Below are positions 3,461 through 38,165 of a stretch of DNA of 64,000 nt, piece by piece (the first letter of the stretch is position 1; every line of letters begins with the position of its first letter). Origin of the DNA: an uncultured Clostridia bacterium (GTDB lineage Bacteria; Bacillota; Clostridia; Christensenellales; UBA3700); contig CAMQWP010000002.1 of NCBI GenBank assembly GCA_947038565.1, forward strand, positions 1 to 64,000, read 5' to 3'. A program made the translations under genes and the position numbers. The notes below the pieces were generated by a model. That model searched no databases and had not been told where the DNA came from. It saw only the letters and a list, made by a program, of their open reading frames with translations.

Positions 3461-3829
3461 ATGGAGATATTTCTATTATATTTGAGAGTTTTTGCCACTG
3501 GAGGTACATTTTGCCTCATCGGTCAAATACTAATCAATAAAACAAAAATGAATACAGCAAGGATACTTGTTTTATTCTTATCTATAGGTGTAATATTAGA
3601 AGCCACTGGACTATGGATGTATGTAGAGGGGTTCGGTGCTAGCGGTGCGACAATACCAATAGTAGGTTTTGGTGCGTCACTTGCAAGAGGTGCTATTAAT
3701 GGTGCTAAAATCGGCATTCTACCAGCATTGACAATGGGACTAGAAAGCGTAGCAGGTGGATTGACTGCCGTTATTGTTTTTGGATTATTCTTCGGTCTAG
3801 TGTCCAGATCCAGAACTAAAAAGATGTAG
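3461..3829 (+). CDS. spoVAE: Stage V sporulation protein AE (SpoVAE)
   Basis: A 122-residue integral membrane protein with about four hydrophobic segments, the third member of the SpoVAC-AD-AE core found in all spore formers. The region FATGGTFCLIGQILINKT and the glycine-rich IPIVGFGASLARGAINGA are characteristic. Translation starts at 3461 after GAGGAGGATAT. It is followed by about 100 bases without a clear terminator and then yunB, which probably has its own promoter. Confidence 0.94.
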   Translation: MEIFLLYLRVFATGGTFCLIGQILINKTKMNTARILVLFLSIGVILEATGLWMYVEGFGASGATIPIVGFGASLARGAINGAKIGILPALTMGLESVAGGLTAVIVFGLFFGLVSRSRTKKM

Positions 3830-8447: not shown

Positions 8448-10685
8448 ATGGTAGAAATATTAGCGCCATGTGGGAATATAGAGTCATTACGCTCCGCTGT
8501 AACAGGCGGGGCTAATGCCGTTTATTTAGGTTTATCAAACTTTAATGCAAGAATGAAAGCTGATAACTTTACTAATGATAACATCAGTGAATGGACTAAT
8601 TATTGTCACATTCACAATGTTAAAGTATATGTTACTTTAAATACTAGTATTAAACAAAACGAGTTAAGTCAGCTTGACGATATAGTCATCGCTTGTGAAA
8701 ATGCTGGTGTTGACGCTTTTATAATAACTGATCTTGCAATACTTCCTATAGCGAAAAAACTAGCACCACACATACAGTTACATGCAAGTACTCAAATGGG
8801 TATTCATAATCTTTATGGTGCAAAATTTATAGAAAGACTTGGATTTACTAGAGTTGTGCTATCTAGGGAATGTGGACTAGAGGAAATCAAGCAAATAAAA
8901 CAGAATACTAATCTAGAAATAGAATATTTTGTACATGGTGCGATATGTGTATCGTTCTCTGGTGGTTGTTTATTCTCTAGTGTTACTACTGGTAATAGTG
9001 GTAATCGAGGCGGATGTCTACAGCCTTGTAGAAAAGAATATACTGAGTCACTAACTGGTACAAAAGGATACATGTTATCACCTAAAGATCAGTGCTTGAC
9101 GAATGATATTCATCAACTAGTTAGTAGTGGCGTAGATAGTTTGAAGATAGAAGGCAGAATGAAATCTCCAGAATATGTTGGGCTTACTTGCTCAAAATAT
9201 GCTAAAATATTAAATGGTCAAAAATTAACAAAAGTTGATACTAGCGAGCTTAAGCGTGTTTATAATAGAGGCGGTTTTAGTAGTGGTTACGCATTTTCAG
9301 CAAAAAAAGATATAATGTACAAGTCCTTACAAGGTCATATGGGCGAGTTTGTTGGTAGCGTAATTTCTTGCAATGCATTCAAAGGCGATAGCTATAAGCT
9401 TAAAATATCAAGTAATCATGCATTTGTAAACGGTGATGGACTGAAAATATTCCGCAATGGCAAGGAAGTTGGAGGTTTAGAAGTAAGTATAATATCTTCC
9501 GAGAAAGATGAGTATTTAATTTACTCTAAAAGAAATTACATGAGCGGAGATACCATACATATTACAAACGATAAAACACTATCGTCAAAAATATTATCAA
9601 AATCCAATCCAAAAGTTCCTGTAAATATTACAGCATCATTTTGCATAGTTGACGGAATTAATATTACTGCAATCATATCAGGCAAAACAATAAATTACAC
9701 TGATAATACCTCTTTAACAATTGCCAAAAACTCACCAATGACAGCTGAAAATGTGAGAAGTGCACTATCAAAATTAGGCGATACAGACTTTGTATTAAAA
9801 GATATTAATATCAATATTAATGGTGACATATTCATGCCTAAAAGTGTACTTAATAACGCAAGACGGGCATTAGTCGAATTAATATATGATGAATTACACA
9901 AAGATAGTAGAAGTGAGATCTTATATAAAGATATAATCGGATACAATTTGTTATGTAAAAGTATATCGAATAATATTATCCAAAGCCCTACTATATCAGT
10001 AATAGACAGATTAATAGATACTAATGTAGATTATATTGTAGATCTTACCGAATACGACAAATTAAGCAATAAGTTATCAAATATTGATAGAAATGTATAT
10101 ATTAAACTTCCTAAGATGGCTATGAGCAACGATCTAAATATGATACTTGAAAGATTTTCTTCTATTCCTGACAATGTCGGGATATACGCAGAGAATATTT
10201 ACGCTCTTGAAGTGGCTTATCTTCAAAATAGAATTGTATTAGGCGGTATAGGTCTAAATATATTTAACAATGTACACGCGTCAGGATTAGGGCTTACGAG
10301 TTATATTCCTAGCGTTGAATTATCAGCACGTGAAGTTAATGATATGATTTCAATCAACAATAGTATTGCAGTATATTCTTACGGAAGACTACCAGTTATG
10401 ACCCTTGCTCATTGTCCTATTATAAATATAACAGGGTGCAATTGCAACAAATGTTTATACAAGCCTTTCAAATTAAAAGACATGTACGGCGAGTACCCAC
10501 TAGATAGAGATAAGACTGTAAATTGTTATTTTACTATGTACAACAGTGTTATAACTAACATTATTAGCGACAATAATTATAATAATTACAGTAAATTATA
10601 CAATCTTGCTAATATAGACAATGCAATTATAAATAAAATTTTGACGTTTAGTACTTGCAAAAAACATGACAATAGTGTAAAATAA
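8448..10685 (+). CDS. U32 family peptidase-like protein (RlhA/YhbU type)
   Basis: A 745-residue U32 family protein. Relatives in this family are now linked to RNA hydroxylation (E. coli RlhA on 23S rRNA, TrhP on tRNA wobble uridine) rather than proteolysis. The N-terminal TIM-barrel core begins MVEILAPCGNIESLRSAV, and the hallmark cysteine region lies near residues 165-190 (FVHGAICVSFSGGCLFSS, then GNRGGCLQPCRKEY). More cysteines occur late (CPIINITGCNCNKC). The ATG at 8448 is chosen because homology starts there, one base after the pheT stop; the upstream in-frame extension lies inside pheT. The length suggests a DUF3656-type C-terminal half. The actual RNA target is not determined by sequence. 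Confidence 0.88.
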   Translation: MVEILAPCGNIESLRSAVTGGANAVYLGLSNFNARMKADNFTNDNISEWTNYCHIHNVKVYVTLNTSIKQNELSQLDDIVIACENAGVDAFIITDLAILPIAKKLAPHIQLHASTQMGIHNLYGAKFIERLGFTRVVLSRECGLEEIKQIKQNTNLEIEYFVHGAICVSFSGGCLFSSVTTGNSGNRGGCLQPCRKEYTESLTGTKGYMLSPKDQCLTNDIHQLVSSGVDSLKIEGRMKSPEYVGLTCSKYAKILNGQKLTKVDTSELKRVYNRGGFSSGYAFSAKKDIMYKSLQGHMGEFVGSVISCNAFKGDSYKLKISSNHAFVNGDGLKIFRNGKEVGGLEVSIISSEKDEYLIYSKRNYMSGDTIHITNDKTLSSKILSKSNPKVPVNITASFCIVDGINITAIISGKTINYTDNTSLTIAKNSPMTAENVRSALSKLGDTDFVLKDINININGDIFMPKSVLNNARRALVELIYDELHKDSRSEILYKDIIGYNLLCKSISNNIIQSPTISVIDRLIDTNVDYIVDLTEYDKLSNKLSNIDRNVYIKLPKMAMSNDLNMILERFSSIPDNVGIYAENIYALEVAYLQNRIVLGGIGLNIFNNVHASGLGLTSYIPSVELSAREVNDMISINNSIAVYSYGRLPVMTLAHCPIINITGCNCNKCLYKPFKLKDMYGEYPLDRDKTVNCYFTMYNSVITNIISDNNYNNYSKLYNLANIDNAIINKILTFSTCKKHDNSVK

Positions 10686-16596: not shown

Positions 16597-19500
16597 ATGA
16601 TATATGCAATTATTATATTAAGTTTATTACTGATAATTTTCGGTGTACTTGCGATACGACGCGAATATACTTTTCGAATTACAGCCAAACTGCAAACTAG
16701 TGAAATAGAATCAAACGTGGCAAATCTGGCTATTAGTCTACGCAGTCCAAATATGGACGGATCTGCTCCTAGAACCAGAAGTTTACTAGCAAATCTCAAG
16801 AGATCATATAGACATATCTGCAAAAAAGTTGCAAATGATGAAGATTTATACGAGTTTGAAAAATGGTTGTATGAGAATTATTATAAAGTAATAACAAATA
16901 TATCATCGACAAAATACAATTACTTTGCTTTATTACCGAGCGTAAAAGGTAAAGCTAGGGTATTGATAGTTGCCGACTTTTTACTTTCAAGTAATGATAA
17001 TCAACTTACATGTGAACATATTAGCGAAGTAATCGACAATTTCAACCTATATACACCACTAGACAAAGATGAAGTATTTGCATTGACTGATGCAATTGCT
17101 TATACTTGCATTCAGCGAATTACTAATATATGTACAAAATCTAAAAGCTATTCAAGGTCAAAACGTCTTGCATCAATAGAAAATTTTAATAAAAAAGAGC
17201 AGTCTTCTGATGCATATATGTACTGGCGTAGTAGGAATGGTTATTTAGCTGACGATCATAATAAAGCCACTATGTACGATGGCAACTTAGATAATATAGA
17301 ATTCTCATTTACTAAAACTCTAGTAGAAAACTGTAGAGTAATGTCAAAATGCATTAAATCGTTAATATATATCGAAGATAATATAAGTTTAGAATACAAA
17401 ATAGGTCTAAGCTATGCAAGTCAGCTTATGAAAAATGACGATATATATGCAACGATGGATATAGATAGTAGGCTCTCATACCTCAACAGTATTGAGATTA
17501 TTAGTCGCAAGTATAAAATCGAAGAGCAGTCAGTTGTTAAACATGCGATGCAGTTAGCTACCGATAATAATATACATTTTGGATATTATTTCTTTGAGGG
17601 AAGAAGACAACTAAAAACATATATTAAAGATGGAAATAGTGTACCACCAGATCACAAATCAACAAAATTTATACAAAATCTATTTATTACAATGGTATTT
17701 ATGGGGAATATAATTGCATCGGTAGCATTATCTATATTTGGAGCTAGTAGTTTATGGACGTTAATTACTTTCGGTATTGCACTGTTTTTTGCACTACTCC
17801 CACTTACAGAATTTATTATAATATACTTGTTTAGATTATTTTTGATAAATAAACCTACACCAAAACTAAATAATAATACTGTAAATGATGACGCAAAAAC
17901 GCTAGTAGTAATGCCTTGTTTCGTAGGTAGTGATAACGACGCTGAAACAGTAGCAAATGCAATACTAAGAGTACGCGAAAGTAACAATATGAACAACGTA
18001 AATTTTGCTTTACTAGTAGATTACCCAAGCAGTGAAAGTCCAAAACACAAATATTTTGATGACTTTACAGAAACAATTACACAAATTATTGACAAATATA
18101 ATGACATAAATCTATTCATTAGAAAACCTGTGAAATCAGGTAATAAATATATTGCCTTTGAGAAAAAACGTGGTGCATTAATGGATCTTACTGATAGTCT
18201 AATGCGTGATAATTATGATACATTTGAATACATTCATAGAACACATATTGCTTCACCAAAATTTATTGTCACACTTGATAGTGATAATGAATTGCAACCA
18301 GGTAGTATCTTGAGATCTATAAATACTATGCTACATCCTCTAAATAAAAAGTATGATTTAATGACTTTTAATGCAAAATACAACTTATACTCTATGAATA
18401 CGTTATTTTCTAAAAGGTATTATTTTGATAGTGGATATGATAGATATAGCAATACAGATAACTTTTATAACAATCTTATGACAAAAAGTTTATTCAATGG
18501 AAAGGGTATCTTTAGACTCTATGAGTTTTATACTAAGTTATATAATGTACTTCCTTCCGGAAAAATATTAAGTCATGACATATTAGAAGGTTCGTTATTA
18601 AACACAGGAATGCTAAGCGAAATCGTCTATGAGGACGCACCAAACAGTATATATTCAGAAACTTCACGCAAAAATCGATGGTTAAGAGGTGATTTACTAC
18701 TTGGTGGCTTTCTTGGCTCAAAAATAAAGAACGACAATAATGCAGTAACAATTATTAAAAAAGAGAAAGCATATAATCATATAATAGTATCTAATATATT
18801 AAAATCATTTTCACCTATTGCTATGTTATTACTACTAGTGATACCACTACTTTACAAATCATTTATGATGGCTATTCCGTTTATTATTGCATTTGGACTT
18901 GATTATATTATAAGAATATTTAATGCGCTGGCGGGTACAGTAAATGGAACACGAACTAGATACGTTGCAAGATGCATAATTAGTATATTGATAGAATCAT
19001 TTATTAATCTATTAATACTACCATTTTATGCAATAAATAATATTGTAATAATTAGTCAGCTTATATTCACTGCTATATTTACACCTGATAAAAAACTTGA
19101 TTGGAAGCCATTCTCAAGCTCGCAGCATGGAACTTCTCTTATAAATTATTTTATATTGATACTACCTTCAGTTATTTTCGCGACTATTATGTCAGCAGTT
19201 TTCTATGCAAACCCTTTTATGCTAGGCTACTTTGCTATATATGTTGCAGTGATCATATCCCTTTATATTACAGGAACTGAAATTGATAAAAAACAATTTA
19301 TCAAACTTTGCGACCAACAGTTTTTATTAGAAATTGCAAAAAAGACTTATAAATTTTTTGAAGAATGCAGTATTAATGATCTTGTTGTAGATAATTATCA
19401 AACCAAGCCATATAAAGGCAACGCGATATCTACTTCTCCTACTAATATTGGATTTTCATTACTTGCCGAAGTTTCAGCTTACGAATTAGGTATAATAAGC

Positions 19501-22500
19501 ATAGAAAGTGCAAACAGAAAAATTGCATCAAAGTTAATTGCCGTAAATAGGCTTCGAAAATATCGCGGTCATCTGTACAATTGGTATAATATAGAAACAA
19601 AACAGATACTGAGTCCAAACGTAATATCCTCAGTTGATAGTGGTAATTTCTTAGCATCGCTAATCACATTGAAACAGTTTATGTTAAGACATAAACTTGA
19701 CAATATTGATATTGTTGAGAATCTAATAGCAAACACTGACCTTGATTTTATGTACGATAATTATCAACAAAAGTTTTTCATATCATATAATACCGGGGAA
19801 AAATTATATAACGGACACTATGATATATTAGCAAGCGAATCAAGAATTTTGTATTATATTTATACCTCAATATCGCATAATACTGCGGCATGGCTAACTC
19901 TTAAAAGACAAACTAGCAACCTAAAAGGTAATACCTTGATGTCATGGTCAGGCACAATGTTTGAGTATTTAATGCCAAGGATATTTATGACACCACCTAA
20001 AAACTCACTTCTTGAAGATACCGAAAAAAATATTATCAGTATATCTAAAGGGCATAAATGCAAAGGGTTATTCGGTATATCAGAGTCAGGATATTATCAG
20101 TTTGACAACAATTTAAAATATCAATATCATGCATTTGGTCTAAACGAGATATCAATTAGGAATTCAAGAAATTCATGTGTAATATCGCCATATTCTTCTT
20201 TTCTATGCCTACAAATTAATGCTAATAAGGTAATAGAGAACATAAGAACTCTTAAAACTGAAGACATGGTAGGGGAATACGGTTATTATGAAGCAGTTGA
20301 TTTTACAACACAGAAAAATATAGTTTACTCTTATATGTCACATCATCAAGGAATGATAATAACTAGTATTGCTAATTCACTTAGAGATAATTGCATATCG
20401 AAGCACTTTGAGTGTGACAGTAAGATGCAAGGGGGTAGACTTTTACTTGGAGAGAGAAGAATTTTTACAAAATCTCACAAAATAGCAAAAACTGATTTTG
20501 CGTATAATAAAAATGATCATGAGGACCTTATAACTGATGATGCTTGCTCAACTGGTATTCTAACTAATGGAGCATACACTTATATATCAAAAAGCACAGG
20601 ACAAAATGTGAGTATTGTCAATGGGAATGCTATAGCAAAAATGCGTAATTATGATAAAAGATCTGGACTTATTAACTATGTTCAAAATAACGGGGCTAGT
20701 CTATCACATTCATATAGAAGGTGTGACAATAATACGGTATGTGAAAAATTTACACATTTGTTCAAGGATACAATGTTGGAGTACACAAATACTGGTGCAA
20801 ACATAAGTGAAGAAGTATATATTCCCAATTGTATAAAGGGCGAAGTTCACAAATTTACAATAAATAAAACTATAAACGATATGACAAATATAAATTGCGT
20901 TGGATACATGGATATAAGTATTAGTCCGTTTATGGACGAAATATCACATACTGCTTTTTCGGATATGTTTATTAGTAGCGAAAAAATAAATGAAAATACT
21001 GTATTATTTCACCGAAAGTCTCGAGATAATGGCGGGGACAAATTCGTAGGCATTAAAATAATTGGTTTGCAGAATATAGTATTTGAAACTAATAAGCAAC
21101 ACAGTATAGATATCAATAGCAAAGAAATAATATGGAATGATAACGAATTTGATGATTCATTTGGTGATGTTGTGACGCCGTGTTTTAGCTATAATAGCAA
21201 GTGTAGCAATGAAGAAATGTCTACTATGAACTATTATATAGTAATAGTATACAGTGAAAGCAAAAGTGAGATAATATCAGAGCTTAGTCTTATCGAAAGC
21301 ACAAACTCGATTGATTATCTAATAGAATCGGCAAAAGTAAAATCAATTTCTAAGGTTAATAAGCTATTTGATAAAAACGCAGATTATAAAATGGCATTGA
21401 AACTCGCTGACATAATAATATCAGCTAATTATACAGATTCAGCACTTATGGAAATGAATCAAATTGACTATAATAATCTTATGAATGAAGTTAATGCAGG
21501 ATCGGACTGTAAAATAATATACTATAGTTATCAATGCAACCCTAATTTATTAGTTTCGTTATCAAAAGCAATTGAATTTATAAAAGACATACCAATGTCA
21601 CATAAACTAATTATATATATTGATGATAGAAATAAAAATCATGATGTGATAAAGAATAAAGTATATAGTGCATTCGATGGTAATATTGGCCAATACCTGA
21701 TTATCAGTAATTACGAATTATCTAAGCGAATAGAGGCAATTTCTTTATATAACATCTCCAGTAAAGAATTATTCACGGCAAAATCCATTACCCAACCTGA
21801 AAATACAATTATTGACAGTTCGGACATGGTAGAAAAAAGTGATATATTGTTTAAAGTGAAAGATGGCGGTTTTACAAGTGACTCATATTTAATTGAAAAT
21901 CGGACAATCAAACCATATTCAAATGTAATTTGTGGCATGTTCGGCGGTACTGTAGTCACTACAAATGGTGGCGGTTTCACATATTTTGGGAATAGTCGTA
22001 ATGATAAAGTAAGTATGTGGAGCAATAATCAATTAGAAGATGAATGTAGTGAAAAGATAATGTTATCATTAGATAATATGTCTTGGCGATTAAATAAGCT
22101 ATATCAAAATGCGAGTTGCGAGCATAAAATAGGCTCTACGTCATTTGACTGTCAAAATCTAAATATTAAAAGTTCTGTAACAGAGTGCATGCTATATGAT
22201 GGAAAATGCAAACTATTTGAAGTATCACTAGAAAATACTTGTGCTGACAATCTAATATTTGAATTGTCTCTAGATATGACTTATGCGCTAGGCGTCAACT
22301 ATGAGAGTGCGGGTTTGCTAGCATCAAACAAGAATAACGAAACTATTACTGTCGCAAATGTATATACTAAACAATGCGTATATCAAAGATTTATCGGGTA
22401 TTCAAGTAAGTATAGAAGAAATAAAAAGGGTGTAGAGAACTATATTGAATTAACATTGCCTGCAATGCAAAAACTAAAGATAAATTGTATAATAAGTAAT

Positions 22501-24021
22501 GACTTATCCGCATTGATGAGCTTGAATCAAGGCAATATAATAAAAGAAAAAAACACAATGATAGAATATTTTAATGATTTAAACAAAATCAATGTGCATA
22601 CTGATGATAAATCATTTGATGTATTATTTAATAAATCACTTATGTATCAAACCGTATCAGCAAGATTAAATGGAAAATGTGGCTTTTACCAAGTTGGAGG
22701 AGCTATCGGCTTTAGAGATCAGTTGCAAGATTGTCTTGCTTTTATATATAGCGATCCTGATTATGTTCGAAATCACATTATTCAAAGTGCTAAGCGCCAA
22801 TTTGTAGATGGCGATGTGCTGCATTGGTGGCACAATCCTAATGTCGGTGTAAGGACTAGGATAAGTGATGATAAATTATTTTTACCTTATGTTGTATCAG
22901 AGTATATTAGAATAACTGGAGATAGAAGTATTTTAAAGGAAAATGCTAGTTATTTAACTGGACGACATTTAGAGCCTGGGGTCCATGATATGTATATGTC
23001 ATATAATGATGGTGAAGTAATAGAAGATATAAAATCACACTGCATTAGAGCGATAAATAACTCGCTAAAATATGGCGAACATGATATATTATTAATCGGA
23101 TCAGGGGACTGGAATGATGCACTGAATAATATTGGTGATGAAGAACGGGGTGAAAGTGTATGGTTATCAATGTTCTGCTTTCATGTTATTACAAAGTTCA
23201 GCAAGTATACTGATAATGACATAAACGAAAAGTTTAAGCAAGATAAAATAAGGCTTAAGAGAGGAATAAGACAAGCATATCAAAATGGTTGGTATGCTAG
23301 AGCATATACAAAAGATAACGAGTGGTTAGGAACAATTAATACTGAGGTATGTAATATTGACCTCATTTGCCAAAGTTTTGCTGTGATATCTGGTGCATGT
23401 CCAGAAAAAATGGCACATAAAGCAATGGAGAATGCGTCGCAGCTAATTGACACGCAAAAAGGCATTGTAAAACTACTATCGCCACCATTCAATCATAATA
23501 AAAATTATGGATATATATCTCATTATCCATCAGGAGTGCGAGAGAATGGCGGACAGTATACTCATGCTGTAGCTTGGTATATTAAAGCTCTAGCAATGAT
23601 TGATCGTGTTAAAGCCTATGATGTATTACAAATGGTAAATCCTATAAATAAAGCTATCAATAATCCAGAATATAACGTAGAACCGTATGTAATGAGTGCT
23701 GATGTATACACTTCTGGTGCAGGTGGATGGACATGGTATACGGGTAGTAGCTCATGGTTTTATAAAGTGATGATAGAAGATATTATCGGAATAAACTTTG
23801 ATGAAAATATATTAAGAATTAACCCTAAATATATACCAAAACTAGGAGATATAAAAGTCAATATCAAAAGAAATGACATGGAAATAAATATAACAATTAC
23901 AAAATCAAATGATACGAGTATGAGCGTTAATAATATTATAAATTCTCAAACTAATATTTATGAAATAATACTTGATAATGACAAAAAAGACTACGATATC
24001 AAAATAAACTATAAAAACTAA
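16597..24021 (+). CDS. Cyclic beta-1,2-glucan synthase (GT84 + GH94)
   Basis: A single 2474-residue membrane protein. After an N-terminal membrane helix and two hydrophobic segments (about 355-420), a GT84 glycosyltransferase core shows LVVMPCFVGSDNDAETV, the Asp motif PKFIVTLDSDNELQPGS (near 550), HDILEGSLLNTG and the NRWLRGDL signature (near 690). More membrane helices follow (about 720-890), then a glycoamylase-like domain (SPTNIGFSLLAEVSAYELG to about 1300), which does the cyclisation in characterised relatives, then a GH94 phosphorylase-like region with GFRDQLQDCLAF (near 2037) and the catalytic Asp in GSGDWNDALNN (near 2168). Proteobacterial ChvB/NdvB are about 2800 residues; a relative exists in Thermoanaerobacter. 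GAGGTG precedes the ATG. Probable product: periplasmic or secreted cyclic beta-1,2-glucan. Cyclic versus linear product is inferred. Confidence 0.88.
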   Translation: MIYAIIILSLLLIIFGVLAIRREYTFRITAKLQTSEIESNVANLAISLRSPNMDGSAPRTRSLLANLKRSYRHICKKVANDEDLYEFEKWLYENYYKVITNISSTKYNYFALLPSVKGKARVLIVADFLLSSNDNQLTCEHISEVIDNFNLYTPLDKDEVFALTDAIAYTCIQRITNICTKSKSYSRSKRLASIENFNKKEQSSDAYMYWRSRNGYLADDHNKATMYDGNLDNIEFSFTKTLVENCRVMSKCIKSLIYIEDNISLEYKIGLSYASQLMKNDDIYATMDIDSRLSYLNSIEIISRKYKIEEQSVVKHAMQLATDNNIHFGYYFFEGRRQLKTYIKDGNSVPPDHKSTKFIQNLFITMVFMGNIIASVALSIFGASSLWTLITFGIALFFALLPLTEFIIIYLFRLFLINKPTPKLNNNTVNDDAKTLVVMPCFVGSDNDAETVANAILRVRESNNMNNVNFALLVDYPSSESPKHKYFDDFTETITQIIDKYNDINLFIRKPVKSGNKYIAFEKKRGALMDLTDSLMRDNYDTFEYIHRTHIASPKFIVTLDSDNELQPGSILRSINTMLHPLNKKYDLMTFNAKYNLYSMNTLFSKRYYFDSGYDRYSNTDNFYNNLMTKSLFNGKGIFRLYEFYTKLYNVLPSGKILSHDILEGSLLNTGMLSEIVYEDAPNSIYSETSRKNRWLRGDLLLGGFLGSKIKNDNNAVTIIKKEKAYNHIIVSNILKSFSPIAMLLLLVIPLLYKSFMMAIPFIIAFGLDYIIRIFNALAGTVNGTRTRYVARCIISILIESFINLLILPFYAINNIVIISQLIFTAIFTPDKKLDWKPFSSSQHGTSLINYFILILPSVIFATIMSAVFYANPFMLGYFAIYVAVIISLYITGTEIDKKQFIKLCDQQFLLEIAKKTYKFFEECSINDLVVDNYQTKPYKGNAISTSPTNIGFSLLAEVSAYELGIISIESANRKIASKLIAVNRLRKYRGHLYNWYNIETKQILSPNVISSVDSGNFLASLITLKQFMLRHKLDNIDIVENLIANTDLDFMYDNYQQKFFISYNTGEKLYNGHYDILASESRILYYIYTSISHNTAAWLTLKRQTSNLKGNTLMSWSGTMFEYLMPRIFMTPPKNSLLEDTEKNIISISKGHKCKGLFGISESGYYQFDNNLKYQYHAFGLNEISIRNSRNSCVISPYSSFLCLQINANKVIENIRTLKTEDMVGEYGYYEAVDFTTQKNIVYSYMSHHQGMIITSIANSLRDNCISKHFECDSKMQGGRLLLGERRIFTKSHKIAKTDFAYNKNDHEDLITDDACSTGILTNGAYTYISKSTGQNVSIVNGNAIAKMRNYDKRSGLINYVQNNGASLSHSYRRCDNNTVCEKFTHLFKDTMLEYTNTGANISEEVYIPNCIKGEVHKFTINKTINDMTNINCVGYMDISISPFMDEISHTAFSDMFISSEKINENTVLFHRKSRDNGGDKFVGIKIIGLQNIVFETNKQHSIDINSKEIIWNDNEFDDSFGDVVTPCFSYNSKCSNEEMSTMNYYIVIVYSESKSEIISELSLIESTNSIDYLIESAKVKSISKVNKLFDKNADYKMALKLADIIISANYTDSALMEMNQIDYNNLMNEVNAGSDCKIIYYSYQCNPNLLVSLSKAIEFIKDIPMSHKLIIYIDDRNKNHDVIKNKVYSAFDGNIGQYLIISNYELSKRIEAISLYNISSKELFTAKSITQPENTIIDSSDMVEKSDILFKVKDGGFTSDSYLIENRTIKPYSNVICGMFGGTVVTTNGGGFTYFGNSRNDKVSMWSNNQLEDECSEKIMLSLDNMSWRLNKLYQNASCEHKIGSTSFDCQNLNIKSSVTECMLYDGKCKLFEVSLENTCADNLIFELSLDMTYALGVNYESAGLLASNKNNETITVANVYTKQCVYQRFIGYSSKYRRNKKGVENYIELTLPAMQKLKINCIISNDLSALMSLNQGNIIKEKNTMIEYFNDLNKINVHTDDKSFDVLFNKSLMYQTVSARLNGKCGFYQVGGAIGFRDQLQDCLAFIYSDPDYVRNHIIQSAKRQFVDGDVLHWWHNPNVGVRTRISDDKLFLPYVVSEYIRITGDRSILKENASYLTGRHLEPGVHDMYMSYNDGEVIEDIKSHCIRAINNSLKYGEHDILLIGSGDWNDALNNIGDEERGESVWLSMFCFHVITKFSKYTDNDINEKFKQDKIRLKRGIRQAYQNGWYARAYTKDNEWLGTINTEVCNIDLICQSFAVISGACPEKMAHKAMENASQLIDTQKGIVKLLSPPFNHNKNYGYISHYPSGVRENGGQYTHAVAWYIKALAMIDRVKAYDVLQMVNPINKAINNPEYNVEPYVMSADVYTSGAGGWTWYTGSSSWFYKVMIEDIIGINFDENILRINPKYIPKLGDIKVNIKRNDMEINITITKSNDTSMSVNNIINSQTNIYEIILDNDKKDYDIKINYKN

Positions 24022-33361: not shown

Positions 33362-34591
33362 ATGGATTTTAGTGAAAAAATATACGATATAGTTAATAAT
33401 GCTGAGATAAAACTTACTCAGCATTTCAAAAACTTAGATAAAATAGCGTTTTTAAACCAAAAAAAAGTACTAGAGGCGTTTCAAAGCAATAATGTAGCGT
33501 CTAGACACATGAGTCAAACATCAGGATATGGATACGATGATATAGGCAGAGATACACTTTGTAGTCTGTTTGCAGATATTTTCCATGCTGAAAAGGCTAT
33601 AGTGTCTCCACTTATCGCATCGGGAACGCACGCACTTACTGTTGCTTTATTTGGAGTATTACGTCCAAATGATAAGATGATATGTATAACTGGTGCACCG
33701 TACGATACGCTAAGGTCAGTGATTGGTGGTGATAATATAGGTTCACTTAAAGATTTTGGTGTAGGATATGATCAAATAGAGTTAAGCAATGAAAAAATCG
33801 ACTTAAATGCTATAAGTGACAAATTCTCTAAAGAAAAATACAAACTTGCTTTCATAGGCAGATCAAGAGGTTATGAGTGGAGAGATGCGCTAAGTGTAGA
33901 GCAAATAGGTGAGGCTATAAAACATATCAAGAGCATTGATAAAGATACTGTTATTATGGTAGATAATTGCTACGGGGAATTTATGGATACTATAGAGCCA
34001 ACTGACGTCGGTGCTGATCTAATGGTAGGATCTCTTATTAAAAATCCAGGTGGTGGCATAGCCCCAACTGGAGGATATATAGCTGGCAATACTGAGTGGG
34101 TAGACCAAGTAGCATATAGACTAATTGCTCCATCAATTGGTATGGAAGTAGGGTCATATGCAGCTGGTTACATGCAGTTTTATCAAGGTATATTCCTGGC
34201 TCCAACGACCGCAATTAATGCTGTCAAAGGCAGTGCACTAATGGGACAGGTCTTTGAGGATTTAGGTTATCAAGTTATGCCTTCTCCTACAGATAATTGC
34301 AATGATATCATTAGATCTATAAAATTCGATACAGCTGATCAATTAATAAGATTTATTCAATCAATACAAAAAGCATCTCCTGTAGATAGTAATGTTCTTC
34401 CTATACCTTGGTCAATGCCAGGCTACGATAATGAAGTTATCATGGCGGCTGGTACATTTGTGCAAGGTGCAAGCATTGAGTTATCTGCCGACTCTCCAAT
34501 ACGTGAGCCATATATCGCATATGTGCAAGGTGGGCTAACTTATGAACATGTAAAACTTGCTACAATGTACTGTTTAGCTGATCTTTTATAA
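33362..34591 (+). CDS. Methionine gamma-lyase family protein (YnbB-like)
   Basis: A 409-residue PLP-dependent fold type I protein of the family once labelled aluminium resistance protein. Visible: SRHMSQTSGYGYDDIGRDT, the cofactor region IASGTHALTVALFG, VDNCYGEFM with the aspartate that contacts PLP nitrogen, and the PLP lysine in GSLIKNPGGGIAPTGGYI. It commonly sits next to miaA and hfq in Firmicutes. The substrate is not established for the family; the name is inherited from similarity to cystathionine/methionine lyases. It starts one base after miaA ends and is last in the operon. Confidence 0.9.
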   Translation: MDFSEKIYDIVNNAEIKLTQHFKNLDKIAFLNQKKVLEAFQSNNVASRHMSQTSGYGYDDIGRDTLCSLFADIFHAEKAIVSPLIASGTHALTVALFGVLRPNDKMICITGAPYDTLRSVIGGDNIGSLKDFGVGYDQIELSNEKIDLNAISDKFSKEKYKLAFIGRSRGYEWRDALSVEQIGEAIKHIKSIDKDTVIMVDNCYGEFMDTIEPTDVGADLMVGSLIKNPGGGIAPTGGYIAGNTEWVDQVAYRLIAPSIGMEVGSYAAGYMQFYQGIFLAPTTAINAVKGSALMGQVFEDLGYQVMPSPTDNCNDIIRSIKFDTADQLIRFIQSIQKASPVDSNVLPIPWSMPGYDNEVIMAAGTFVQGASIELSADSPIREPYIAYVQGGLTYEHVKLATMYCLADLL

Positions 34592-34655
34592 AATATTATA
34601 CATTAGCAATAATCTAACTAAATCTCAATAATATATATAATAAATACAAAAAAAA

Positions 34656-34676
34656 CGCGACAAGTCGCGTTTTTTA
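34656..34676. terminator. Bidirectional terminator at the orientation switch
   Basis: CGCGA (34656-34660), loop CAAG, TCGCG (34665-34669), extended by an A run on the left and a T run on the right, so it works for both the miaB operon and the convergent recombinase gene. The rest of the 34592-34814 gap is AT-rich with nothing I can name. Confidence 0.88.
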
Positions 34677-34814
34677 TTTTATATTAAATTGATAAATCTT
34701 AAAATTTTCTAAAACATATAGATTTTGAATTTTGATAATCATTATATATTTTTATATATTATACAATACACATAAGTATAAATATTAATATGATTTAAAC
34801 ATCTACAACTAAGA

Positions 34815-35885
34815 TTATTCTTCATCTAGTACGATAGGATTGGCTCTTACAACTACTTTTTTAGATGCTTCTTTCTTTATATCCTCACCAATATCAGCGT
34901 AATGTTTTTTGGTCACATTGACATCCTTATGTCCCAATAACTCGGCGACAACGTATATATCTTTGGTTTCTCGATACAAATTAGTGCCAAATGTACTTCT
35001 TAGTTTGTGTGGAGAGATATTTTTAAGCGGTGAGATTAGTTTAGCGTATTTCTTAACAAGGTTTTCTACCGCACGAACAGAAATTCTTCTTTTTTGCAAG
35101 CTAAGGAAAAATGCATCCATATTGATACCTTCGGCATCAATTAAAACACGCAATTCAAAGTATTCAAGTAGAGCAATGGACACATCGTTATTAAAATAAA
35201 GTATGCTTTGATTTCCACCTTTTCTTGTGACCTTAAATGACATGGTATAAAAATCAACATCGTTTATATCTATACCAACTAGCTCACTTATTCTAATTCC
35301 AGTACCTAAAAATAGTAATATTATTGCAGTATCACGTACCTTTGTATTATCATGATAAGCCTTTTGTCTATTAGTAAAATCTTTTCCAGTTTCAGCTTCA
35401 TTAACAATATTAAAAACTTCATCGCCTTCAAGCCTGACGATATTTTTTTCATGCACCTTAGGCATAGAAACTTTAGTTGCGATATTACCATCAAGTTTAT
35501 TTTTATTATAGTAGTATTTAAACATGCTCCTAATAGTTGCAAGTTTTCTAGACTTTGTAGTAAGCGAATTTTTGTAATGCTTTCCATTATAATCATAACT
35601 GGTTAAGTAGCTGATAAACTTTTCTATATCGTAAGCCTCAACTAATCTTAACTTAGATATAGTAAACGTCTCAAAATCTAAACCTTGAAATTTTCTTATC
35701 TCTGTATATAAGAAATTAAAAAATATTCTCAAATCAGTAGCGTATCCAAGTCTAGTTAATGATGATGTAGTAGATTGTATTCCAATAAAAAACTCTTCCA
35801 CAAAATAAGGTAGATCTTGTAGAAATTCTTTTAGAACATATTCAGTTTTTTCAGTTCTCTCATCAAAAAAATTACTTTTACTCAT
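34815..35885 (-). CDS. Tyrosine recombinase, Xer-like
   Basis: A 356-residue tyrosine-type site-specific recombinase. The SAM-like core-binding domain covers about residues 24-125. The catalytic set is complete: R198 (GTGIRISELVG), K222 (RKGGNQ), H293 and R296 (SPHKLRSTFG), H319 (LLGHKDV) and nucleophile Y329 (KKHYADIG). No other phage or element genes lie nearby, and it sits at the point where gene orientation flips, which fits a chromosomal Xer protein better than an integron or phage integrase. Its mRNA appears leaderless: a consensus promoter ends six bases before the ATG and no ribosome site is present. Which Xer (XerC, XerD, or a single-recombinase type) cannot be told. Confidence 0.88.
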   Translation of the reverse strand: MSKSNFFDERTEKTEYVLKEFLQDLPYFVEEFFIGIQSTTSSLTRLGYATDLRIFFNFLYTEIRKFQGLDFETFTISKLRLVEAYDIEKFISYLTSYDYNGKHYKNSLTTKSRKLATIRSMFKYYYNKNKLDGNIATKVSMPKVHEKNIVRLEGDEVFNIVNEAETGKDFTNRQKAYHDNTKVRDTAIILLFLGTGIRISELVGIDINDVDFYTMSFKVTRKGGNQSILYFNNDVSIALLEYFELRVLIDAEGINMDAFFLSLQKRRISVRAVENLVKKYAKLISPLKNISPHKLRSTFGTNLYRETKDIYVVAELLGHKDVNVTKKHYADIGEDIKKEASKKVVVRANPIVLDEE

Positions 35886-35891
35886 AGATAC

Positions 35892-35920
35892 ATAATACCA
35901 TATATAATTTATTATTACAA
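35892..35920 (-). promoter_or_regulatory. SigA promoter of the recombinase gene
   Basis: On the minus strand TTGTAA (35920-35915), 17 bases, TATTAT (35897-35892). Transcription should start at or next to the ATG (35885), giving a leaderless mRNA. Confidence 0.65.
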
Positions 35921-36063
35921 TAGATTATATAAGATTTAATTAAATAATACTATTGCATTGTTTTATTTGTTAAAATATAAAGTATTATCAAATATACCAT
36001 AAAACATAATACTTGCAAGTTTTTAGTAAGATAATGATATAAAAATTGATTAAAATACCATAT

Positions 36064-36093
36064 CTATTCGCAAAACTATTCTTTTGCGAATAG
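36064..36093. repeat. 12-6-12 inverted repeat, candidate recombinase site
   Basis: CTATTCGCAAAA (36064-36075), a six-base centre CTATTC, and the perfect complement TTTTGCGAATAG (36082-36093). It lies in the 528-base gap between the recombinase and the PadR gene, 180 bases upstream of the recombinase start. The arm-centre-arm geometry is that of dif/Xer sites (about 11-6-11). There is no T run after the stem, so it is not a good terminator. An outer pair CCATAT/ATATGG (36057-36062 and 36108-36113) surrounds it. The remainder of 35886-36413 holds only promoters and AT-rich sequence. Confidence 0.6.
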
Positions 36094-36347
36094 TTATGAT
36101 AGATAAATATGGTTGTATTTATACGAATTTGCCATTACTCCGCGTTAAATTTTATATATTATGATAAAAAATCAATTATAATTAAGACTATTTGTTTATT
36201 TATAAGCACAGCTTCACGCTCTATACAATATACTATTATCCGTTGTTATACTATTTTAATCACCGTGTATTTGGTGCTCTATCGTGAAATACAGCTTACA
36301 TAATTATGAATTACACTCTTTTTTATAATAATCATACTCTAATAGTA

Positions 36348-36376
36348 TTGACTTATTATGATAAATATAGTAAAAT
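36348..36376 (+). promoter_or_regulatory. SigA promoter of the PadR gene
   Basis: TTGACT (36348-36353), 17 bases, TAAAAT (36371-36376), followed by AAAGGAGGT at 36397-36405. Confidence 0.75.
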
Positions 36377-36413
36377 AAAAATATACAAATAAATTAAAGG
36401 AGGTATATATACT

Positions 36414-38165
36414 TTGGAAAATTCTAATATCGAATTAATACGTGGACATATGGACACTATCATACTTAGAACATTACAGCAGGGCGACAAATATGGACTT
36501 GAAATGCTTAATGAAATCAAGAGCTTAAGTGATGAACTTTACTCGCTTAAACAACCTACATTATATAGTAGCTTAAAACGTTTGGAAAAGCAAGGATATA
36601 TATCGTCATATCCAGGATCAGAAACCAAAGGTGCTAATAGAACTTATTATAAACTCACCGATCAAGGGTGCAATATGCTAGAAACAGACCAAAAACAATG
36701 GGAGTTTTCTAGGACTATTATAGACAAATTATTATCAAATAAAGAATTTGATAAAGAAAGCATACCTCCGTTTAATACATCGGAGTTTAGGCCATCTACT
36801 AAACGTGAGAGAAAAGAAGTTGAACCTACTATTATCATTAAATATATAGAAGTAGAAAAGAAAGTATTTATTAAAGAGGACGCAACTGACTTAGTAGCTG
36901 AAGAATTCGAGCCAGAAACTATTACTATTATCAATGATAAAGCTAATGATGATACTTCTAATTCAGTATCAGACAATAACAATGAGGTTTATACTCAGTT
37001 TTATGAAAAGCCAAAATGCGAGGATACGTATGAGGAATACTCATGTGATCAAGAAATTGCAAGCGACGAAATTACTGATAATAATAGCACATTAGATAAC
37101 AATAGTTCATCTGATTACGATACTACAAGTGAATGCCCTCCTGACCTAGATGATGAAAATGATGTTAATACAGTTAATTCATTTAATGATACTATGATTG
37201 ATAATTATACCGATAGTGATTTCGATGAAATTATGGCTAAAGATCTAAACACTAATAACGAATATCAATTTTATAATGATATATCACAGCCATCTGATAA
37301 TAATTCTACTCAGGATAACTTGCATAATGAAACATACTCAGCAGAGTACGATTTCAAAGCTGAAAACTACTCTTCTACTCCAAATATTAATGCTGAATAT
37401 AAACAGTATGATTATGACGAAGTACAACCAGGCAAGTTAAATGACAATATATTCATGAAAGCGTCTAAAGAAGAAGAGTTATATATTGATGACTGCGTCG
37501 ACTACATGGATACATTCGGAGACATGTACTCTACTGATAAAATCATCGAAATAAATGAAGACACAGTTACTGCTCCTAAAAATGATTACAAGCAATATAA
37601 TTACGCGGAGAAAACTTATACTTCTGATAAAAACATGAGTGAAATGACTATGACCGACTTAAAATCAGTTTTAGCTTCTAAAAATATTAAGTTAAAACCT
37701 CACTATAGAAACAGCACAATTAACTTCTATAGCGGTAAGTTCTATTATAGCAATAGTGTTTTACGTGACTGGTCACTTATAATGTACGGTTTATTTATAT
37801 CATTTTTGCTTATCTCATATTTTTCAGCGTCAACAAAAGGTATTAATCTTTACTGGACATTAGGATTTATGGGCATTGGTTCAGTTTTACCTATATCATG
37901 TTTCTTATTATGGAAATATTCACCCGTAAGAAGAAAACGAACTTCATTTGTAGCTGGTAATACACTACTAGTATCGTGCATAATATTAATTGCATTAACG
38001 GTGGTTATCATATTAGTTGCATTCTTTATAATAAAAATTGACACTTCTAATCCTGTAGAGCTTATACCAACTATCATTATACCGTTAGTAAGTTTACTAT
38101 TAATGCCAATAGGTGTTGGTGTATATTCTATTTTATACAAATGCAAACGTTATCATGTAGGTTAA
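36414..38165 (+). CDS. PadR-family regulator fused to a membrane domain
   Basis: A 583-residue protein. Residues 1 to about 110 form a PadR winged helix (RGHMDTIILRTLQQGDKYGLEM, LKQPTLYSSLKRLEKQGYI, RTYYKLTDQG). A linker of about 330 residues, very rich in Asp, Glu, Asn, Ser and Tyr, follows with no recognisable fold. The C-terminus (about 460-580) has four hydrophobic helices (first LIMYGLFISFLLISYF, last LIPTIIIPLVSLLLMPIG) and a basic tail. Ordinary PadR proteins have 100-190 residues and are soluble. The start is TTG at 36414 after AAAGGAGGT; PadR homology begins there. Membrane tethering of the DNA-binding domain is inferred. One of two plus-strand genes in the right half. Confidence 0.85.
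   Translation: MENSNIELIRGHMDTIILRTLQQGDKYGLEMLNEIKSLSDELYSLKQPTLYSSLKRLEKQGYISSYPGSETKGANRTYYKLTDQGCNMLETDQKQWEFSRTIIDKLLSNKEFDKESIPPFNTSEFRPSTKRERKEVEPTIIIKYIEVEKKVFIKEDATDLVAEEFEPETITIINDKANDDTSNSVSDNNNEVYTQFYEKPKCEDTYEEYSCDQEIASDEITDNNSTLDNNSSSDYDTTSECPPDLDDENDVNTVNSFNDTMIDNYTDSDFDEIMAKDLNTNNEYQFYNDISQPSDNNSTQDNLHNETYSAEYDFKAENYSSTPNINAEYKQYDYDEVQPGKLNDNIFMKASKEEELYIDDCVDYMDTFGDMYSTDKIIEINEDTVTAPKNDYKQYNYAEKTYTSDKNMSEMTMTDLKSVLASKNIKLKPHYRNSTINFYSGKFYYSNSVLRDWSLIMYGLFISFLLISYFSASTKGINLYWTLGFMGIGSVLPISCFLLWKYSPVRRKRTSFVAGNTLLVSCIILIALTVVIILVAFFIIKIDTSNPVELIPTIIIPLVSLLLMPIGVGVYSILYKCKRYHVG

Follow-up and report, generated by a model that had tools for sequence, protein, structure and literature searches.

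The switch in gene orientation and GC skew at 34–36 kb of contig C2 can, with high confidence, be interpreted as the chromosome replication terminus of this bacterium carrying a Xer/dif module with a single recombinase, and the location of the terminus in this part of the contig is near certain. The lone Xer protein and a putative dif site upstream of its gene probably act together in separating fused (dimeric) chromosomes. The window, by which we mean the whole stretch of 64,000 nucleotides that was analyzed, corresponds to bases 1–64000 of C2 (250,116 bases), which is part of a draft genome of 2.09 Mb (35 contigs, 95.6% complete). In another contig of this genome (G000), viz. C34 of 2,905 bases, the stretch that was read contained no G or C letters and it seemingly consists of N. 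The features of the window that are discussed in this work are as follows.

33362–34591, plus strand: methionine gamma-lyase (PF06838) family protein, 409 aa (Pfam, 5e-169), the last plus-strand gene
34279–36092, no strand: GC-skew and gene-orientation switch (replication terminus region), from the cumulative skew maximum to the putative dif
34650–34675, no strand: bidirectional rho-independent terminator located between xer and the methionine-gamma-lyase-family gene that converges on it, with an 11-bp stem and a run of T on either strand
34815–35885, minus strand: xer, XerS-like tyrosine recombinase, 356 aa (PF00589, 2.7e-29; NCBIfam XerS as best model)
36065–36092, no strand: putative dif, a perfect inverted repeat made up of TATTCGCAAAA (36065–36075), the centre CTATTC (36076–36081) and TTTTGCGAATA (36082–36092)
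36414–38165, plus strand: PadR-type regulator, 583 aa (PF03551, 3e-16), a neighbour that probably does not belong to the Xer/dif module

A first-pass annotation of this DNA had described a flip in gene orientation in this gap, with G exceeding C on the plus strand to its left and C exceeding G to its right, and both of these observations are borne out. Based on a simple selection of open reading frames, 20 plus-strand and 2 minus-strand genes are present to the left of position 36,079 in the window as compared to 2 plus-strand and 18 minus-strand genes to the right of it (Fisher p = 1.5e-7), and when the right side is followed to the end of C2 it contains 23 plus-strand and 144 minus-strand genes. 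The GC skew in the window is mostly between +0.1 and +0.2 to the left of ~34 kb and between -0.1 and -0.3 to the right of ~38 kb. The same annotation had anticipated that, for a terminus, cumulative GC skew over the contig or genome should reach a global extremum near 35–36 kb. For C2 this holds, as the cumulative skew over all 250,116 bases shows one maximum only, at 34,279, which is 1.8 kb from the dif-like site, and to the right of it the skew is negative over the remaining 214 kb, with a steady cumulative fall; the plus side on C2 consists of 34 kb only, and the contig spans the flip ungapped (0 N). The opposite turn, from minus to plus, occurs on contig C1 at dnaA (C1:266209–267534), and among the stretches sampled there the cumulative skew is lowest at C1:268,040. 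For the rest of the genome this expectation was followed up in sampled stretches, and in those from the other contigs no second sustained flip from plus to minus was seen, the skew being of a single sign apart from small local deviations. The reading of the gap as a terminus is thus supported by the occurrence together, at 34–36 kb, of the switches in skew and orientation, which include the only sustained plus-to-minus flip in the sampled genome. It should be noted that the data place the skew switch and the putative dif, and that from skew and gene order we infer that the replication forks fuse at the C2 switch.

The bidirectional terminator and the Xer-like recombinase that had been reported at the switch are also both present. 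The PadR-like gene starting at 36414 on the plus strand opposes the majority strand of the right side. Its product is of unusual architecture, as it contains an acidic linker of low complexity and ~300 residues, and its translation shows hydrophobic segments at the C-terminus that probably form a membrane region. Elsewhere in the window, an open reading frame of 2474 codons is found on the plus strand at 16597–24021, and the skew is weak in the surrounding stretch at 16–20 kb.

The best NCBIfam model for the 356-aa Xer protein is XerS (NF003462; E 2.9e-53), with a score of 180.9 bits that lies under the curated cut-off of 267 for membership in this family. The catalytic residues R198, K222, H293, R296, H319 and Y329 are all invariant in an alignment of 16 sequences. 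Relatives of this protein, mostly of 45–67% identity and nearly always encoded in a single copy, were identified in 56 of 59 genomes of the order, a set in which 25 families were sampled and in which Xer relatives are found across most of these families. The other tyrosine recombinases of the genome comprise three full-length phage-type integrases and one fragment, with low scores against Xer models, and a XerC/XerD pair was not found in it. None of the 59 genomes contained a protein scoring above the cut-off of the XerD model, which is a strict cut-off reached by only 4 of 14 control genomes. Additional XerC/D-like proteins are encoded by the genomes G038, G041, G001 and G021, and the extra genes in a few relatives score 200–280 bits; judged by gene content, the presence of a single recombinase holds for the genome studied here and for most of its relatives, but not for all of them. 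In an unrooted tree with long branches, the XerS proteins of streptococci and their relatives form a clade of their own (100/99) and the Xer proteins of the order branch outside of it. We put the latter forward as a putative lineage separate from XerS; a sister relation to XerS is compatible with the tree, and an independent origin is not claimed.

The palindrome at 36065–36092, which lies in the gap and was absent from the first-pass annotation, is very likely the dif site used by this recombinase. It is 28 bp in length, shows the 11-6-11 layout seen in dif sites and is located 180 bp upstream of xer, and an outer C/G pair at 36064/36093 lengthens its arms to 12 bp. It was first detected as an inverted self-match, after which, in most relatives, the best palindrome found upstream of xer proved to be this one. 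In the window it is the sole match when up to 3 mismatches are allowed, where 0 are expected from shuffles. With up to 2 mismatches, the site was found in 38 of the 59 genomes, usually exactly once per genome, as against 0 for the reversed-pattern control, and in 33 of these 38 genomes it adjoins xer. For the sites upstream of xer in the relatives, a centre of 6 bp fits better than one of 5 or 7 bp. The site is intergenic, palindromic, unique and placed at the skew switch, which is how a site for a single recombinase (28–31 bp) is recognized. The Xer connection that the first-pass annotation had drawn is real and specific: the gene at the switch encodes the recombinase that has the housekeeping role in the order, and a dif-like site of its own lies alongside.

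Three other matches with two mismatches were considered as dif sites and rejected. The match at C6:28030 in the same genome falls within an open reading frame where the skew is constantly positive and is attributed to chance. The match on contig C104 of G053 is regarded as false, as a better palindrome adjoins the xer of that genome, and so is that on C13 of G007, as a variant site is present upstream of its xer (L084).

A scan of named genomes provided xer loci from 80 further species, most of which are labelled Clostridia, including Christensenellaceae, Ornithoclostridium (which falls in Christensenellales in the NCBI taxonomy) and some Lachnospiraceae names. The site was present 64–2200 bp upstream of xer in 56 of them. 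Among the loci with 4 kb or more on each flank, the skew flipped from plus to minus at this point in 37 of 44 loci with the site compared with 4 of 15 loci lacking it (Fisher p = 8.6e-5). Three of the four flipping loci that were counted as lacking a site (L091, L111 and L122) have one slightly further off or in variant form, and the true association of site and flip is therefore stronger than these counts indicate; in 7 of the 44 loci with a good site the flip was weak or absent. A locus with a Streptococcus-type xerS and an adjoining difSL (L212), serving as the positive control, behaved alike in the same analysis. In the 56 named loci with the site the half-sites covary, with T/T at position 4 in 42 cases, G/G in 11 and a mixed pair in 3; positions 3, 5, 9 and 10 never vary, and the 6-bp centre is fixed in length and varied in sequence. 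The genomes in which no site is found near xer are also informative, as in most of them a degenerate pattern finds a strong palindrome elsewhere. In 10 of these genomes (G060, G061, G062, G063, G066, G067, G071, G072, G074 and, for its first site, G073), the skew maximum lies no more than about 2 kb from the displaced site, as judged from at most 20 kb of surrounding sequence, with one short flank (about 0.5 kb) for G067 and G073. Elsewhere, a weak change was seen in G059 and none in G064 and G065, the site match in G065 being poor. In G036, where 54 kb separate the site from xer, the cumulative skew peaks at a distance of 14 kb from the former and 68 kb from the latter. Where the two are apart, the skew switch thus usually follows the site and not xer.

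These results bear on the interpretation of the flip itself. If the orientation and the skew flipped at the boundary of a large inversion or at an assembly join, then such a switch would be seen without any terminus, and the fragmentation of the draft into 35 contigs, with just 34 kb of the plus side on C2, leaves some room for this. However, a single contig crosses the flip with no N, and the same flip occurs at the same pair of Xer and dif-like site in the independent assemblies of dozens of other species. We regard an inversion boundary or join as very improbable, because the 214 kb to the right remain of one sign, the flip recurs in other species, and it usually goes with dif where xer is apart. 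A further suggestion is that the palindrome is not a recombination site but serves xer or the PadR-like gene as operator or terminator. Operators are often palindromic, and a perfectly palindromic site that precedes the xer start codon by 180 bp could be read in this manner. However, the distance between site and xer ranges from 64 to 2200 bp, the centre is constant in length at 6 bp and variable in sequence, and the site is also present on phage contigs that lack xer. Further, in a subset of genomes the site is found at a skew flip elsewhere on the chromosome, away from xer, and the switch usually tracks the site in these cases, as would be expected of dif. A role as operator or terminator is therefore very improbable.

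Accepting the palindrome as a putative dif, a refinement of the terminus reading, rather than an alternative to it, is that the point at which the skew switches depends on dif (through Xer/FtsK processing) and not necessarily on the commonest meeting point of the forks. The tracking of dif by the flip where xer is elsewhere is consistent with this, and the position of dif and the sites of termination have been reported to be separable (PMC3025954). However, this proposal is compatible with a terminus at the switch, as the forks from one origin must on average meet near here for the skew to build up, and we consider it possible but rather doubtful.

Diverged forms of the site were seen in some other genomes. 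In two relatives from the same class, these occur just upstream of xer, viz. TATCGGAAAAA-CAGATA-TTTATCCGATA in L221 (G307:C10, about 250128), where the skew change is clear, and TGTTCGCAAAA-CTCCAG-TTTTAAGAAAA in L220 (G284:C1:364413), where it is weak. In another family, f72 (L225, L233 and L237; G376:C1:1254228, G185:C10:69247 and G111:C21:67370), a XerD-like gene of ~310 aa is preceded at 60–150 bp by the palindrome TTCGCAAAA-N6-TTTTGCGAA (or its TTCGTTAAA form), together with a sharp GC-skew flip. The f72 loci possibly represent another single-Xer system.

The site is also present on viral sequences. In the IMG/VR contigs, the pattern TTCGCAAAA-N6-TTTTGCGAA occurs in 14 places compared with 2 for the reversed pattern, and a variant site gave 26 matches versus 0 for its reverse; the same variant adjoins xer in several isolate-derived records. 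The exact dif palindrome is carried by a phage-plasmid in IMG/VR (L242:9846–9875, L243:2367–2396 and L244:11889–11918), represented by contigs of 37–96 kb that are near-identical around the site, have a GC-skew flip of their own at it, and contain the centre CTATCC, one base off the CTATTC of the window. Genes for Rep3, ParA and ParB are present on L242, and no xer was found in the stretches read from these three contigs. In L311, the site (1277–1306) lies just upstream of terminase and portal genes. In L323 (1466–8504), a host xer is followed by two dif-like sites, of which the first is at 3570 and the second, at 8477, is the poorer one; they are 4.9 kb apart in direct orientation and the same record contains a rolling-circle replication gene, so that it looks like a Xer-integrated ssDNA phage. 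The site-bearing phage contigs fit with elements that would use the host Xer and they support, without proving it, the identity of the palindrome as a recombination site. The 26 viral contigs with the variant (L324–L349) carry it in the asymmetric form TATTCGYRAAA-N6-TTTAACGAATA, and two of these records (L328 and L339) start 4 bases before the variant site, as is expected of prophages inserted at dif.

In view of such elements, it can be asked whether xer is itself the integrase of a mobile element, with the palindrome as its attachment site and its position at the terminus reflecting an insertion preference. Tyrosine recombinases are often integrases, dif-like sites on phages exist, and relatives of the Xer protein occur in some fecal phage records. 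However, the gene is present in single copy in nearly all genomes of the order, its best family model is the housekeeping XerS, no element is evident around it in the window, and the site-bearing stretches of L242–L244 do not contain xer. The chance that this explanation is correct is accordingly very small.

If the gene and the palindrome constitute a Xer/dif module, then the following sequence of events is proposed. An odd number of crossovers would fuse the sister chromosomes into a dimer. One Xer protein would bind to both half-sites of each dif, and FtsK would pair the two copies of dif at the division septum and activate strand exchange through the 6-bp centre, resulting in two monomers. 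The symmetric arms would suit a lone recombinase and the asymmetric centre would fix the direction of the crossover. The phages and the phage-plasmid presumably carry mimics of the site for integration at dif or for their own multimer resolution by the host enzyme. An FtsK with a gamma domain is encoded at C3:163312, and FtsK-dependent recombination at the 28-bp site is a prediction of this scheme. A search for KOPS-like words that may guide FtsK, based on leading-strand-biased 7- and 8-mers, yielded only the codon-like words GATAATGG, TGGTGGTA and GATGAGAT, none of which was convincing.

For the order as a whole (which is probably Christensenellales; some genomes labelled Lachnospiraceae have related forms), it is likely that a separate single-recombinase Xer lineage exists with a symmetric dif of covarying half-sites, that dif and not xer tracks the skew switch, and that the site is put to use by a phage-plasmid as well as by several phages that are unrelated to each other. 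A site of this kind provides an exact and searchable marker of the terminus for a large group of uncultured bacteria, which helps in orienting fragmented genomes and in estimating growth rates from coverage. The covarying half-sites and the displaced xer genes make the co-evolution of enzyme and site testable, and the mimics on viral contigs indicate where little-known gut phages may integrate or resolve their multimers. The system is also a natural comparison to XerS, XerH, XerL and XerA for how direction and timing are achieved with one recombinase on identical half-sites.

The known systems with a single recombinase are XerS/difSL, XerH/difH, XerL and the archaeal XerA (PMC5357621, PMC2731167, PMC9765430), and by analogy the Xer/dif of this order would work like them. 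Among the papers searched, none reported Xer/dif in this order, which is not a proof of novelty. XerCD/dif of Bacillus and E. coli shares with the present system a 28-bp 11-6-11 site at the skew switch and the FtsK gamma domain. However, it employs two recombinases on two different half-sites, whereas one recombinase and identical half-sites are found here, and the system is therefore not of the XerCD type. An integrative mobile element exploiting Xer (IMEX) would be expected to have a dif copy at either end and to be integrated by the host enzyme. The phage contigs resemble IMEX in carrying a dif mimic while lacking, over the stretch read, a xer of their own, but the copy in L242–L244 resides in an apparently extrachromosomal phage-plasmid (Rep3/ParA/ParB), for which multimer resolution is as likely as integration. 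XerL/dif of Legionellales is similar in having a single recombinase, uninterrupted inverted-repeat arms and a mobile element with a dif mimic (PMC9765430). However, the taxa are unrelated, and its xer is located >400 kb from dif (PMC9765430), whereas in this order xer usually adjoins dif. In XerH/difH of Helicobacter and Campylobacter, a single recombinase of 354–362 aa is likewise encoded near a site with a 6-bp centre between conserved inverted repeats (PMC2731167), but the protein similarity is low (PDB XerH 5jjv, E 2e-4) and the phylum is different. XerS/difSL of streptococci and lactococci likewise has a single tyrosine recombinase of ~356 aa, with xer and the site forming one module at the terminus, FtsK is present, and the inner ends of the half-sites read AAAA...TTTT. 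However, difSL has unequal arms and an 11-bp centre (PMC5357621), while the site described here has identical 11-bp arms and a 6-bp centre. We have not filed this protein as XerS because, at 181 bits against the cut-off of 267, it falls short of the family model, branches outside the XerS clade, and is accompanied by a site lacking the unequal arms and long centre of difSL. The best reading of these comparisons is that the Xer/dif described here is akin to XerS/difSL but would represent a separate lineage with a symmetric dif.
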